22,078 nucleotides of DNA from a virus. Shown here piece by piece: positions 1,079 through 12,679 of this stretch. A program made the position numbers and the translations under genes. Positions within the stretch are counted from its first letter, which is position 1. Each line of letters opens with the position of its first letter. The notes under the pieces were generated by a model that did not search any database, had not been told where the DNA came from, and was given only the letters and a program-made list of their open reading frames with translations. The DNA is taken from IMG/VR virus record IMGVR_UViG_3300026367_000003, positions 1 through 22,078 of that record. One strand, written 5' to 3'.

Positions 1079-2206
1079 TTATCCTTTCAACTTGAAGGTG
1101 CGGGCGATCACATCGCCCCAGGGATGGGTGGAACTTGCCGAGCCCGGTTGGGCATGGGCGCTGCTGATATCAGGATCGATATCTGCCTTGGCGGCCAGAA
1201 GGGCTGCGCGAATGTCATCAAGACCTCTGTCCTCTTCCAAGAACCGTCCCGCCATTTGCGGCTGACCGGCGAGGCGGCACAGATCAATCACAGTGCGCGC
1301 ATGCGCGATGGCTTCAGCACGGATGGCGCTGGCGTCGGGAGCAGTGTTGCCAACTCCAACAGTGCTCCGTCCCTCAGAGAGGGGAGCTGGTTCTGGACCC
1401 AGATCAAAAGTCTTGTCAGCCGCAAGAGTTTCTGGATCCGGCGCGGGTTCCGCGTCTGGACCTGCTTCAAGGTGAGCCCCAGCAGCTTCGACGCTCTTAT
1501 TGGGGTCCGTAACGGTGGAACCGGACTCACGCGACAGCGGATCGCTGATCTGAATACCGTCGTGACTATCAACAGTTTCACCCACCCCAGCCTCTGCCGC
1601 CTCTGCCGCCTCGACGGCCTCGACAAGCACCGGCGGTGCATTGCGGAAGCGCCCGATGTCGAAGCTGGCGGCAATACGGACTGGCTCTGCCATCCGCGTG
1701 GCCAGTCCCAGATCCAATGCGTCCTGCGCATCGAACCATGTCTCTGCAGCCATCAGGGCTGCAATCTCCGTCTCGGGCTTGCCAGATTTGGCGGCATAAC
1801 CCCGGGTCATGCTCCCCGCAATCTTGTCCAGCGTGTCAGCCATCCCTCGCATCTCAGTGGCTGTGCCCATGACAAGGCCGGAGGGATCATGGATCATCAT
1901 GAAAGCATTCTCCGGCATGACGATCTCGTCACCCGCCATTGCAATGTAGCTGGCAGCCGAAGCCGCAATCCCGTCGATCCAAACGGTGATCTCGCCTGTA
2001 TGACGCTTTAGCGCATTGTAGATCGCCACTGCATCAAACACCGAGCCGCCCGGACTGTTGATCCGCAAAGCCAGCGGCGTGCCATCCGGCAACGCGCCCA
2101 GTTCCGCCAGAAACCCCTTTGCCGAGACGCCATAAGCCCCGATTTCGTCATAGATCACCACCTCCGCGCCCGTGGCTAGGGCGCGGATCGTGTACCAGCT
2201 GTTCAT
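1079..2206 (-). CDS. ClpP-like head maturation protease (lambda gpC role) with long C-terminal extension
   Basis: A 375-residue serine protease of the ClpP/S49 type used by phages to process the prohead. Residues about 1-180 are the ClpP fold: NSPGGSVFDAVAIYNAL near 50-66, the nucleophile Ser83 in GIAAS, and His106 in MMIHDPSG. The catalytic acid is probably Glu155 or Asp159 in AETWFDAQDALDLGLA. Residues about 195-290 are a low-complexity Ala/Glu/Pro linker. The last 80 residues (AEAIAHARTVIDLCRLAG onward) look helical, like phage scaffold domains. The start MNSWYTIRA at 2206 has a CAGGAG site (2214-2219). A longer in-frame extension to 2425 is rejected because it overlaps the portal gene. 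An internal GTG at 1585 may give a separate scaffold product. Confidence 0.87.
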   Translation of the reverse strand: MNSWYTIRALATGAEVVIYDEIGAYGVSAKGFLAELGALPDGTPLALRINSPGGSVFDAVAIYNALKRHTGEITVWIDGIAASAASYIAMAGDEIVMPENAFMMIHDPSGLVMGTATEMRGMADTLDKIAGSMTRGYAAKSGKPETEIAALMAAETWFDAQDALDLGLATRMAEPVRIAASFDIGRFRNAPPVLVEAVEAAEAAEAGVGETVDSHDGIQISDPLSRESGSTVTDPNKSVEAAGAHLEAGPDAEPAPDPETLAADKTFDLGPEPAPLSEGRSTVGVGNTAPDASAIRAEAIAHARTVIDLCRLAGQPQMAGRFLEEDRGLDDIRAALLAAKADIDPDISSAHAQPGSASSTHPWGDVIARTFKLKG

Positions 2207-2210
2207 GCTG

Positions 2211-3725
2211 TCACTCCTGTTCAGATGTATCGTTGGTGCCAGCACCAGCGTCGCCGCCAGCATCCGGCAATTGCGCCGGTGTCGCCCGCGCGCCCTGCGT
2301 CTCGCCCGGACTGGTGCGGTACTGCAGGCCCAGTGCCGCCACGCGGGCCGCGTCGGTCGCGTTTTCTCGGTCGATTTCCTCGACGTCGTAGCCCGTCGCC
2401 TGGACGACCTTGCGGCGCGAGACAATCCCTGCCTCCATCGCCAGCACCTGCGCCTGGATGTCTTTCAGCGGATCGACCCAATCCCAGCGGGGCGGGATCC
2501 AGTTCACCGGGCGGTAACGCGCCGGAGACCGCGCGAAGTCCGGTATCTCCAATGCGCCCGACAGCACCGCCGTTTCCAGCCAGCGCGCCCAGACCGGGCG
2601 GCAGAGCTGGTGCGCGACAACACCGTGCTGCAACTGCTCGACGCGGCGGCGAAACTCGACCAGTTCGGCGCGCAGGCTCGAATAGTTGGCTTGACGCACG
2701 TCGCCAGTTACCAGGTGATAGGGCAGCCCCAGCGAGGCCGAAACCGACAGCAGCGTCCGGTACTGGAACGCCTCATAGCCGCCACCGACGTCGGCAGGGC
2801 TGGAGAACTTCACGTCTTCGCCCGGGAGCAGAACCTGCAGGGTGCCGGGTTCCAGGCTGACGGTCGCGCCGCTGTCGTCGGTCGCCTCGATCTCGCCCAT
2901 CAACTGTTCTTCGGGCGCGGTCTTGGTGATGAAGCCCGCAAACATCGCCGCCGTCTTCTTCCGGTCAAGTTCTGCATCGTCGTACTGGTCGAGCAGAAAC
3001 AGCCGGACCATGGCAGGTGCCACATGCGGCAGACCCCGGATCTGGCCCGCATCGATGGGCCGGTAGATGTGCAGCACGTCCCCGGCAGGGACACGGACCG
3101 TTTCCGACGTGAACATGCCCTGATCGGTGCTGTCGCCGGGATGGCGGCGGCGAAAGTGATAAGCTTGGCGTCGCCCGATGGCATCGAATTCGATCCCGCA
3201 GCGGATGCGGTTGCCGTTTGCGGCGGTTTCGGTTTTCTCGAAGGGCAGCATCTCCGATTGCAGCAGTTGCAGCTGGATCGGCACCAGCAAGCCATCTTCT
3301 GCCCGGCGCGGCCGCAGCCGCACGAAGCATTCGCCCGCGACGAACATCTCGCGCGCCACCATGGCTTGCAGGCCGTAGAAATCGGTCAGGCCGTCGGCAT
3401 CGGCCTCGTCGGTCCATGCGAGCCACAACCGCTGGACCTGATCGCGCAGGGCCGCATCCTCGATCAGTGACGACGGCTTGATCCCATCGCCCACCAGGTT
3501 CGACGCAAACGCCTCGCAGGCATTGGCGGCATAACCGTTGGTCACCACCAGTTCGCGCGACCGCGCCAGCAGACGCGGACCGCCCGAGGCGACCAGCGAG
3601 TTGATGTTTTCCATCGGCGGTTGCCAGCCGCGCAGCCGCCGCTGCGACATCGCCCCTTCCAACCGGGCACGCACGGCTGTGGGGCCACCGGCCTTCCGGC
3701 GGCGGAATGCATCGAGCCAGGCCAT
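2211..3725 (-). CDS. Phage portal protein, lambda gpB family
   Basis: A 504-residue portal protein. It forms the dodecameric ring at one capsid vertex through which DNA is packaged and to which the tail joins. The N-terminal region with RSRELVVTNGYAANACEAF, the central FYGLQAMVAREMFVAGECFVRLR block and the GDVLHIYRPIDAGQIRGLPHVAPAM segment followed by the KTAAMFAGFI block are characteristic of the lambda gpB family, and the length is normal. The C-terminal 30 residues are Gly/Ala/Asp-rich and probably disordered. It starts 3 bases after the gpW stop, and its own stop lies just before the protease start, so gpW, portal and protease look like one translation-coupled series. Confidence 0.93.
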   Translation of the reverse strand: MAWLDAFRRRKAGGPTAVRARLEGAMSQRRLRGWQPPMENINSLVASGGPRLLARSRELVVTNGYAANACEAFASNLVGDGIKPSSLIEDAALRDQVQRLWLAWTDEADADGLTDFYGLQAMVAREMFVAGECFVRLRPRRAEDGLLVPIQLQLLQSEMLPFEKTETAANGNRIRCGIEFDAIGRRQAYHFRRRHPGDSTDQGMFTSETVRVPAGDVLHIYRPIDAGQIRGLPHVAPAMVRLFLLDQYDDAELDRKKTAAMFAGFITKTAPEEQLMGEIEATDDSGATVSLEPGTLQVLLPGEDVKFSSPADVGGGYEAFQYRTLLSVSASLGLPYHLVTGDVRQANYSSLRAELVEFRRRVEQLQHGVVAHQLCRPVWARWLETAVLSGALEIPDFARSPARYRPVNWIPPRWDWVDPLKDIQAQVLAMEAGIVSRRKVVQATGYDVEEIDRENATDAARVAALGLQYRTSPGETQGARATPAQLPDAGGDAGAGTNDTSEQE

Positions 3726-9836: not shown

Positions 9837-10113
9837 CGCGCCCTGTTGCTTCCGGAGCGGCCGTAAAGCACCACCGCTTCAGCAGGTCAACCACGACTTG
9901 GGCGTCTCGTCCTCGCTCGAACAGCCGCCGCAGCAGATAACTGCGCACCAGCGACACGCCGACGAAGGCGAGCCCGATGGTCAGGTGCTCAGCAAGACCG
10001 GTCTCGATTCCGAACCATGGGAACACCACGATCTGCGTCGCGATGGCCAGCGCATAGCCGACGACGACATTCGTCGCGGCTTCAACCAGCGACATGGCGC
10101 GCGATTGCTTCAT
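9805..10113 (-). CDS. DUF7220-like small membrane protein
   Basis: A 102-residue protein that begins MKQSRAMSLVEAATNVVVGYALAIATQIVVFP. Two hydrophobic stretches, residues about 10-31 and 42-58, can cross the membrane. A RSYLLRRLFE motif follows, then a polar tail. This is the DUF7220 pattern I know from prophages, and it is of holin-like size, although no lysis genes are next to it. The start at 10113 has a GAGGTGAC ribosome binding site (10117-10124) that overlaps the methyltransferase stop. The stop of the alternative reading frame over the methyltransferase also overlaps this start as ATGA. The tail overlaps the next gene, so the true C-terminus may be hard to judge. Confidence 0.72.
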   Translation of the reverse strand: MKQSRAMSLVEAATNVVVGYALAIATQIVVFPWFGIETGLAEHLTIGLAFVGVSLVRSYLLRRLFERGRDAQVVVDLLKRWCFTAAPEATGRGEDEQPPRHP

Positions 10114-11300
10114 GTCGTCACCTCATCCATCGGCCAGCAGTTCAGCTGCCAAAGTTCGGAGCGCATGCGCTGCAACCAAGGGAACCACTCCGTTGCCACA
10201 AAGGCGAAGCCGGTCCACCCGGTGGGCCAGCCCATCAGCGCCTCGACGAACAGCGGGTTCAAGGTCCGGCGCACATCGCAGGTATTGCTCCCAGCCACCT
10301 TCATCACCAGGACCTGGCGGCCAAGCAGGCCATTGACCGGAGTGTTCGCCAATGTCGTCGCGCCATCCTTGTGGTCGCGCGCCGTCGGGGTCATCCACAT
10401 CCCCGCCGCATGGGTCAGATCGGCCGTCCTGCGGTTGCCCGCACTCGGCTTGCAGCCGTCGTTCGCCATCGGTGTCGGCCAGTCGCGCGCCATGCGGTCC
10501 AGACCCTTCTCGTCGCGCCTCTCGCCACCCCGGCTGCGGAAACTGTCGATCTGCGGCGTCGGCCACATCGCGGCCGTCGTCGCGAGGTTCATCCCGTGCT
10601 GGCCCGCTTCCTGCGAAGGGGTCGGCTTTGTCTGCCGGTTCTCGTTGGCGCTGGCCCTCGGCGTCGGCCAGAGTCGCAGCAATTCCGTCCGGTTCCCGCC
10701 ACTCGACCGGGTCCCAGAGCAGGCGCGCGGGGTCGGCCAGCGTGTCGCCTTCTCGGATGGCAAGGATGAACAGCCGCTCGCGTCGATGGGGCGCACCGAC
10801 TTCCGCCGCCGTAAAGAGGCCTGCCGCAAGGCGGTAGCCCATGTTGACCAGTCCGCTGGCGACATCGGGGAAGCCGAGGCGGAGATGATGGGCGACATTC
10901 TCGAGGAAGACGAAAGGTGGTTCGACTTCGCCGATGATGCGGGCGACATGGGGCCAAAGGTGGCGGGGATCCTCGGTACCGAGGCGTCGCCCCGCGACCG
11001 AAAATGGCTGGCAAGGATACCCGGCCGAGAGGATATCCACGCTGCCGCGCCACGGTCGGCCATCGAAGGTGGCAACGTCGTCCCATATAACCGCTTGATC
11101 CAAGGACGCGTCTTCCATCCGCGCCACGAGAGTGGCTGCGGCGTATGTTTCCCGTTCGACATAGCCCACAGCACGATATCCGGGGATGGCGATGGTGAGA
11201 CCGAGGTCGAGACCGCCTGCGCCGGAGCAGAGGGAGAGGCCGAACAGGCATGCGTCTGCGGTTCCGGAAGCGCGTCCGGTGGGATGTAGAGCCAGGTCAT
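10110..11300 (-). other. Second open frame across the cytosine methyltransferase (possible overlapping gene)
   Basis: A second minus-strand frame stays open for about 396 codons over the whole methyltransferase gene. Its translation resembles a phage protein type I recall: SWRGWKTRPWI near residue 60, four WPTP motifs plus one variant WMTP, and the ending LNPLFVEALMGWPTGWT. Each WPTP lies over a LADx repeat of the methyltransferase, one base out of phase. The frame ends as ATGA on the DUF7220 start. A GTG at 11309 or the ATG at 11300 could start it. It may be a real overlapping gene or a frame kept open by the composition of the repeats; the methyltransferase frame is clearly coding. Confidence 0.3.
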
Positions 11301-11304
11301 GCAT
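10123..11304 (-). CDS. C5-cytosine DNA methyltransferase (Dcm family)
   Basis: A 393-residue enzyme that transfers a methyl group from S-adenosylmethionine to cytosine C5 in DNA. It has motif I LFGLSLCSGAGGLDLG (residues 20-35), motif IV GYPCQPFS with the catalytic Cys98, motif VI FLENV (134-138, Glu135), motif VIII RRERLF (174-179) and motif X LCGNGVVPLVAAHAL near the end. Between VIII and X lies a target-recognition region with five degenerate repeats of the form LADxxG.R. No endonuclease is adjacent, so it probably protects phage DNA from host restriction. The start at 11304 directly follows the stop of the preceding methyltransferase. A longer upstream frame to 11664 only shadows that gene. 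The whole gene is also open in a second frame. Confidence 0.9.
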   Translation of the reverse strand: MHDLALHPTGRASGTADACLFGLSLCSGAGGLDLGLTIAIPGYRAVGYVERETYAAATLVARMEDASLDQAVIWDDVATFDGRPWRGSVDILSAGYPCQPFSVAGRRLGTEDPRHLWPHVARIIGEVEPPFVFLENVAHHLRLGFPDVASGLVNMGYRLAAGLFTAAEVGAPHRRERLFILAIREGDTLADPARLLWDPVEWREPDGIAATLADAEGQRQREPADKADPFAGSGPARDEPRDDGRDVADAADRQFPQPGWREARREGSGPHGARLADTDGERRLQAECGQPQDGRSDPCGGDVDDPDGARPQGWRDDIGEHSGQWPAWPPGPGDEGGWEQYLRCAPDLEPAVRRGADGLAHRVDRLRLCGNGVVPLVAAHALRTLAAELLADG

Positions 11305-11305
11305 G

Positions 11306-12679
11306 TCACGCTGCGGATTTGGGTTTGCGGGCAGGTTCTGGATCGGCGTCTTTGTCGGGTGCATCGGCGGGGGCGTCAGCATTATCGCCCAGCCGCTCGG
11401 TTCTGATCTGCCCAAAAGCTCTGCCATCGCCATCAAGAATTGCGTCGCGGCCGGTGTCGGCCTGCCAGCGTTCAACGGCGACGTCGATATAGGCCGGGCT
11501 GATCTCCATCGCGAATACGCGCCGCCCATTGGCCTCCCCCGCCATGATCTGCGAACCCGAACCACAGAACGGCTCGTAGCAAAGCCCACCCCGCGCCACA
11601 TGCTGGCGCATCGGGATCCCAAAGGCGTCCAGCGGCTTCGGCGTGGGATGATCGGGCCGGTCAACCTTGGCGAAACTGGGCAGCGCCCATGTCGATGGCA
11701 GCGTTTCCTCGGCCACCTTTGGCGGACGGTTCGGGCGGCGCCAGCCCATGAAACAGGGCTCGTGTTTCCACAGGTAATGCGACCGGGTGAGAACCCCGCG
11801 GTCCTTCACCCAGATGATCTGCTGATGGACGAACGCCCCGACCTTTTCCCAGCAGGCTTCCAGCATCGCCTGGCGACGCGAGGCGTGCCAGCAATACCAG
11901 GCGGCATTTTCAGCGATTGCTTCCGCGACGGCGGCCGCGATGAAGCCGTCGTACAGTTCCGCGCCCTGCGAACTGTCATCCCAGGTAGTGCCGTAGGACG
12001 CCGACCAGTCCTTGTTCCGGGTCGGATGGTTCGAGCCGTCGTAGTCGACGAGGTAGGGAGGATCGGTCGCAAACAGGATCGCGCGTTCGCCGTTCATCAG
12101 GCGGCGCACATCGGTGGCGCTGGTGCTGTCGCCGCAAAGGAGTCGGTGATCGCCGAGAATCCACAGATCGCCGGTGCGCGACGCCGGGTTGCGCGGCGGT
12201 TCCGGGATCACGACCGGCGGCACATTGGCACCGCCGCCTTCTTCGCCTTCGCCTTCCGGCACGAAAGCCAGCAGCTTGTCCAACTCGCCGTCGGAAAACC
12301 CGACCAGCGACAGGTCGAAATCATCTGCCAGCAACTCGTTCAACTCTGCTGACAGCAGCGCCTCATCCCATGTGCCAAGTTCCGTAAGCTTATTGTCCGC
12401 GATCCGATAAGCCCGTCGCTGCGCTTCCGTCAAATGGCCGAGAACGATCACCGGCGCTTCCGTCAGCCCGAGCTGCGTGGCGGCCAGCACCCGGCCGTGC
12501 CCCGCGATCAATTCGCCATCTTCCGCGACCAGGCACGGCACGGTCCAGCCGAACTCGGCCATGCTGGCGGCGATCTTGGCAACCTGATCTGCGCCATGCC
12601 CCTTGGCATTGCGGGCATAGGGCTGCAAACGCGCGAGCGGCCATTGCTCGATGCGCTCCGGGGCGAAGCTGAGGGTCAT
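11306..12679 (-). CDS. ParB-N/DNA N-methyltransferase fusion (DNA modification methylase)
   Basis: A 457-residue protein. Residues 1-130 form a ParB/Spo0J N-terminal-like domain with the GHGR motif (60-63, ELIAGHGRVLAATQLG). A Glu/Gly/Pro linker (about 140-165) follows, then an amino-methyltransferase domain with the catalytic DPPY (206-209) before the S-adenosylmethionine motif FCGSGS (371-376). This is the beta-class order, so it should methylate adenine N6 or cytosine N4 in DNA. The ParB-like domain probably helps DNA binding. The Lys/Pro/Asp-rich tail is likely disordered. The start at 12679 has an AGGA site about 8 bases upstream. It is coupled to the cytosine methyltransferase, and no nuclease is nearby. 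The repeats upstream (12718-12802) may be its control region. Confidence 0.88.
   Translation of the reverse strand: MTLSFAPERIEQWPLARLQPYARNAKGHGADQVAKIAASMAEFGWTVPCLVAEDGELIAGHGRVLAATQLGLTEAPVIVLGHLTEAQRRAYRIADNKLTELGTWDEALLSAELNELLADDFDLSLVGFSDGELDKLLAFVPEGEGEEGGGANVPPVVIPEPPRNPASRTGDLWILGDHRLLCGDSTSATDVRRLMNGERAILFATDPPYLVDYDGSNHPTRNKDWSASYGTTWDDSSQGAELYDGFIAAAVAEAIAENAAWYCWHASRRQAMLEACWEKVGAFVHQQIIWVKDRGVLTRSHYLWKHEPCFMGWRRPNRPPKVAEETLPSTWALPSFAKVDRPDHPTPKPLDAFGIPMRQHVARGGLCYEPFCGSGSQIMAGEANGRRVFAMEISPAYIDVAVERWQADTGRDAILDGDGRAFGQIRTERLGDNADAPADAPDKDADPEPARKPKSAA

Follow-up and report, generated by a model that had tools for sequence, protein, structure and literature searches.

A probable two-polypeptide cytosine-5 DNA methyltransferase encoded by overlapping reading frames of one stretch of viral DNA

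Two-chain methyltransferases and the layout of the locus

The cytosine-5 DNA methyltransferase (C5-MTase) M.EcoHK31I targets YGGCCR, and the gene for its small chain, in a 1995 paper on this enzyme, reportedly overlaps the gene for its large chain in another frame. Two-polypeptide C5-MTases are biochemically established, two chains giving an active enzyme in both M.EcoHK31I and M.AquI (PMC3404938). The large chain of M.EcoHK31I carries motifs I-VIII and X and the smaller second chain motif IX; the predicted recognition domain has been placed in the large subunit, the small one having only motif IX (PMC3404938).

These two-polypeptide enzymes are the closest known kind to the locus described here, which lies on the minus strand of a viral contig (IMG/VR record IMGVR_UViG_3300026367_000003; "the window" is the whole stretch of 22,078 nucleotides that was analysed). 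Judged by sequence, its large chain, alpha, resembles that of M.EcoHK31I in having motifs I-VIII and X, with motif IX on a separate chain, beta. Unlike in M.EcoHK31I, the whole variable region of the window's enzyme, an array of WPTP modules, is in beta together with motif IX, only the beta frame is constrained there, and beta overlaps all of alpha. Because the literature puts the predicted recognition domain of M.EcoHK31I in the large chain, we class the window's locus as working like M.EcoHK31I but not as a member of its kind. In M.AquI, catalytic motifs I-VIII and the recognition region with motif IX are on two chains, as they are in several relatives of the window's locus (L129, L133, L184, L292 and others); the small chain of M.AquI has the distal variable region, IX and X, whereas motif X of the window is in alpha instead. 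We found no description of an overlap of the alpha/beta type in the open-licence literature.

The ORF listing confirms the original prediction that two minus-strand frames are open together over some 390 codons (10110-11309, about 393 codons; Table 1). Beta is +1 to alpha, its codon positions 1, 2 and 3 being alpha positions 2, 3 and 1, and its stop overlaps the next start as ATGA at 10113-10110, as had been predicted. An alternative beta start, GTG 11309, would give 399 aa, and the TTG start listed for alpha at 11664 falls within the upstream gene. Since that gene is a ParB-like and N6/N4 DNA methylase, the phage has adenine/N4-type and cytosine-type methylases in tandem. The alpha and beta ATG codons are 4 bases apart; the double start reads ATGCATG in 81 of 94 sequences and ATGAATG in 7 more, the N-terminus of beta is MTWLYxP in the close family, and Shine-Dalgarno-like sequence ahead of the double start is weak (20 of 93).

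Table 1. Positions of the features of the locus in the window
Feature	Position	Strand	Details or basis
Alpha, MTase frame, C5-MTase catalytic polypeptide	10123..11304	-	393 aa; ATG 11304, TGA 10123; motifs I-VIII and X
Beta, WPTP frame, predicted target-recognition array and motif IX	10110..11300	-	396 aa from ATG 11300; TGA 10110
Double start ATGCATG	11298..11304	-	alpha ATG 11304, beta ATG 11300; directly after upstream TGA (11308-11306)
Upstream gene, ParB-like and N6/N4 DNA methylase	11306..12679	-	stop abuts alpha/beta starts
Doubly constrained segment, alpha codons 46-75; beta ...KHTPQPLSWRGWKTRPWIKRLYG...	11080..11169	-	2.3-3.7 changes at alpha fourfold sites, other 15-codon windows reaching 17
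Doubly constrained segment, alpha codons 136-165	10810..10899	-	alpha fourfold sites 3.7-3.8 changes
Alpha LAD-repeat segment, codons ~195-345	10270..10722	-	kept open and read through; no amino-acid constraint at codons 201-320
Beta module 1, WPTPRACSG at start	10720..10739	-	first residues marked
Beta module 2, WPTPRASAN at start	10651..10670	-	first residues marked
Beta module 3, WPTPQIDSF at start	10546..10565	-	first residues marked
Beta module 4, WPTPMANDG at start	10462..10481	-	first residues marked
Beta module 5, WMTPTARDHKDG... until motif IX	10263..10397	-	sequence
Beta motif IX, LNPLFVEALMGWPTGWT	10212..10262	-	conservation, frozen alpha fourfold sites
Alpha motif X, LCGNGVVPLVAAHALRTL	10150..10203	-	third position of alpha once more free at codons 361-380

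Both frames are under purifying selection

At least 146 IMG/VR contigs carry a beta relative, and 80 of these relatives, covering most or all of beta at about 75-86% identity, were kept; alpha as query returned 44 contigs. Parsimony changes were counted per codon position across 92 aligned homologous loci. Changes accumulate freely at alpha position 3 over most of codons 1-200 and again over about codons 361-393, but between codons 201 and 320 they do so at the first position of alpha, the third of beta. Changes per codon at alpha positions 1/2/3 run to 2.1/1.5/15.4 at codons 101-120 and to 12.9/1.9/1.7 at codons 241-260. Beta is thus the constrained protein over codons 201-320, where the amino acids of alpha are free, and because the third position of beta is free over the WPTP part, the LAD repeats of alpha are a shadow of beta. 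The suggestion that one frame merely shadows the other therefore fails for the WPTP frame and holds in the opposite direction; a neutral WPTP frame beside a constrained MTase frame is the reverse of what is found over the WPTP modules. Fourfold sites of alpha took 9-17 changes in windows at codons 16-30, 91-135 and 166-195, and those at codons 346-360, over motif IX of beta, are nearly frozen at 0.4 changes. Constraint acts in both frames at codons 46-75, 136-165 and 346-360.

Stop codons are avoided in both frames. Across codons 5-195 a single beta stop was observed (in L055) against about 103 expected when alpha codons are resampled synonymously in the 92 sequences, and across codons 201-330 no alpha stop was observed against about 184 expected with the beta protein kept (L060, with an alpha stop at codon 236, was left out of the count by a length filter); these counts are not independent, the sequences being related on a tree 7.5 substitutions per site long. 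T occurs in none of the 2235 cases (28 sites) in which a T at position 3 of beta would introduce a stop into alpha; its share elsewhere is 14%. Each homologue has about 10 stops in its third frame. Because stops are avoided in both frames, we take alpha to be read through the module region and beta to be read from near the alpha start. Purifying selection acts on alpha and on beta, in segments that complement each other, and both are kept free of stops; stops do not appear freely in the second frame among relatives, and the codon-position and stop-avoidance tests alike support the first of the two original alternatives, that the overlapping genes are a true pair. The sole clear internal stops in the close family, leaving aside loci with indels or insertions, are those of L055 (beta codon ~181) and L060.

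Division of the motifs between the chains, and its variants

Alpha contains motifs I-VIII (SAM site, PCQ, ENV, RxR) and matches Pfam PF00145 with an E value of 5e-32, the match being limited to profile positions 4-167 of 324. It scores under the NCBIfam dcm cut-off, and its alignment with M.HhaI covers only M.HhaI residues 12-174. Alpha had been described as a normal C5-methyltransferase with all motifs, but its matches to PF00145 and M.HhaI end after motif VIII, and profile comparison locates the variable region and motif IX in the beta frame and not in the alpha chain. Motif X (GNxVxP) is present in alpha as the conserved LCGNGVVPLVAAHAL (GNGVVP).

SWRGWKTRPWI, four WPTP motifs, one WMTP and motif IX are all found in beta as first reported; motif IX had also been called the end of the protein, which it is not, as 33 further residues follow. 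Repeats of the LAD type do underlie the TP modules of beta, module by module, reading LAD/LAD/VAD/LAD/VDD in alpha. Multispecific phage C5-MTases have several exchangeable recognition domains, each of which confers a target. The window's beta has five modules, their number and content varying among relatives (L107, L112, L115), and residues L, N, P, L, M, G and P of motif IX are invariant among 93 diverse homologues. Beta matched no family in Pfam or NCBIfam. The beta frame does match PHROG 1008 ('DNA methyltransferase', E 8e-18) and PHROG 27243 (unknown function, E 4e-12), two annotation clusters that share these beta-frame matches; PHROG 1008 also matches alpha motif X weakly (E 0.008) and probably reflects loci with beta and motif X in one frame. 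The beta profile had no sequence match in the PDB. AlphaFold2 modelled beta alone poorly, with a mean pLDDT of 51 and ~45 in the modules; the model is confident only at motif IX and two helices and had no structural match in the PDB; a modelled helix at 148-167, with pLDDT up to ~81, lies in the second doubly constrained segment.

Single-chain relatives show where beta belongs. Three loci, L288, L290 and L293 (annotated as DNA cytosine methyltransferase), together with further actinophage and other viral loci, hold everything in one frame in the order motifs I-VIII, three to five LPTP/WPTP modules, L(S/A/N)PxFxEWxMGxPxGW and motif X. With hhalign, the alpha profile falls on columns 3-188 of the single-chain profile (E 2e-42) and the beta profile on columns 245-433 (probability 99.0, E 3e-18). 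The AlphaFold2 model of the single chain of L295 matches M.HhaI (Z 21.8, rmsd 3.4, 250 residues) and superposes on M.HaeIII also, its TP modules being of low confidence as in the model of beta alone. The single-chain layout, the profile placement and the match of L295 to M.HhaI identify beta as the variable, target-recognising region with motif IX, and on these comparisons beta supplies that part of the same MTase as alpha. Single-chain actinophage C5-MTases such as Mycobacterium phage prophiGD91-2 gene 27 (L293/L295) have the catalytic motifs, TP modules, IX and X in common with the window's alpha/beta, from which they differ in having them all in one frame. L181 and L182 were dropped as one-frame fusions, L182 joining at a G run and the L181 array lying partly in another frame; L288, L290 and L293 are used in their place.

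Distant relatives were drawn from viral contigs and GTDB genomes. In all of 245 distinct nested loci beta lies +1 relative to alpha, and in none -1, with a mean overlap of 360 codons and a mean of 12 stops in the third frame; the ten loci below 50% GC have the same layout, with a mean overlap of 323 codons and 24 third-frame stops. Outside the window's clade the free position switches in 20 of 20 independent pairs; over the catalytic part their mismatches at alpha positions 1/2/3 number 336/160/761, and over the module region 530/204/147. Genomes carrying the WPTP protein without an intact MTase frame were looked for, and beta without alpha motifs I-VIII was found only where a contig end cuts the locus: of 42 loci left unclassed by the motif filter, a few are interrupted or frameshifted, and tblastn finds alpha sequence in all but L120, whose contig begins inside beta. 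The proposal that the WPTP frame encodes a phage-like protein of its own finds no support here: such cuts apart, every beta locus also has motifs I-VIII.

Other layouts occur as well. In L129, L133, L173, L184 and Gordonia phage Upyo (L292), alpha ends shortly after motif VIII and the WPTP ORF has IX and X. In gene 88 of Gordonia phage CheeseTouch (L291:1489-2523), the alpha frame has I-VIII, IX and X, and only the LPTP modules lie elsewhere, in a +1 ORF of 267 codons that carries no annotation. The one-chain, nested, split and CheeseTouch layouts together indicate that the specificity cassette occurs in several frame arrangements. We rate at even chances a broader reading, in which a large phage and bacterial C5-MTase clade would encode specificity in the +1 frame, superimposed on the catalytic gene, with beta translated in full across ~390 codons; the cassette would have moved between frames, giving the one-chain layout, the nested one in which it goes with IX, the split one in which it goes with IX and X, and that of CheeseTouch, where the modules alone are displaced; and the first half of beta, also constrained in part, would be a further functional domain over the catalytic core.

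Inserts of ~1.1 kb with a ~318-aa ORF, which we take to resemble IS110-family transposases, were observed within the alpha/beta gene at L111:3790-4960, L118:1840-3010 and L119 ~1920-3070. They lie after alpha codon 156 in two loci and codon 55 in one, have the same TTGTCTTATGACTT at or near the left junction, and gave no match in an Rfam search. A second, more distant C5-MTase-like match (L145:21-530 and 2036-2530) lies ~2 kb upstream of a split pair on the same contig.

Proposed mechanism, rival readings and significance

We consider it very likely, from motif placement and comparison with relatives, that a single DNA stretch at this locus specifies both chains of a two-polypeptide cytosine-5 DNA methyltransferase, with alpha as catalytic chain, beta as recognition chain with motif IX, initiation at the double start, and assembly of the two. 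Alpha would supply the catalytic domain, and beta, in the +1 frame, the variable target-recognising region of WPTP modules. Both chains would initiate at ATGCATG, with termination-reinitiation at the stop of the upstream methylase probable; reinitiation after that TGA could start either chain, and beta would be initiated separately rather than by frameshifting. In E. coli, AUGUG and GUGUG are documented cases in which translation initiates at both of two neighbouring starts (PMC9841429). Alpha and beta would then assemble into one active, DNA-methylating enzyme, as the chains of M.EcoHK31I do. The modules, though of low confidence in both models, may form a folded recognition domain, and each is predicted to contact DNA and may bring in a target.

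Programmed +1 frameshifting after motif VIII, joining the catalytic part of alpha to the recognition region of beta in one chain, is unlikely. It would fit with beta being always +1 to alpha, and a +1 shift in the split loci would yield a complete I-X chain. However, since motif X of the window is encoded in the alpha frame, the joined chain would be without it, and beta is open well upstream of the junction, and for these reasons frameshifting is the weaker rival; it leaves unexplained the openness of beta across alpha codons 5-195, the conserved beta ATG beside the alpha ATG, and the openness of alpha across the modules. That beta might be an independent protein with a function unrelated to the MTase, for example in anti-restriction, overlapping alpha by chance, seems to us highly improbable: two doubly constrained segments in its first half would suit such a protein, but beta was not found without alpha, its last half is what single-chain C5-MTases have as variable region and motif IX, and alpha lacks exactly those parts.

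It is scarcely conceivable that the WPTP frame is an annotation artefact, a mere shadow of MTase repeats. Long open frames are common at the GC content of 66% found here, even an antisense ORF of 559 aa being open, and parts of the first 195 codons of beta are without amino-acid constraint; such a shadow would nonetheless not account for the codon-position switch, the near-absence of stops where tens are expected, the invariance of motif IX, the same layout at low GC, or the same modules in frame in single-chain MTases.

The nested layout is common to hundreds of phages and bacteria, of which usually only one frame is annotated. Annotations call beta a hypothetical protein or a second methyltransferase, or pass it over. 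In Synechococcus phage Ssp-JY39 (L124:2969-4084) beta is a 'hypothetical protein' and the overlying alpha is unannotated; in Paenibacillus phage Bloom (L126:3176-3880), in a stretch of 43% GC, two overlapping CDS are both called 'DNA cytosine methyltransferase', the inner one being beta. In many genes annotated as ordinary C5-MTases the annotated frame contains neither the recognition region nor motif IX, and an attempt to express the annotated ORF from a construct whose other frame has been recoded or truncated would probably fail. As a long same-strand overlap in which selection can be measured in both frames, alpha/beta offers a natural test case for dual coding, double-start translation and changes of frame by specificity modules.
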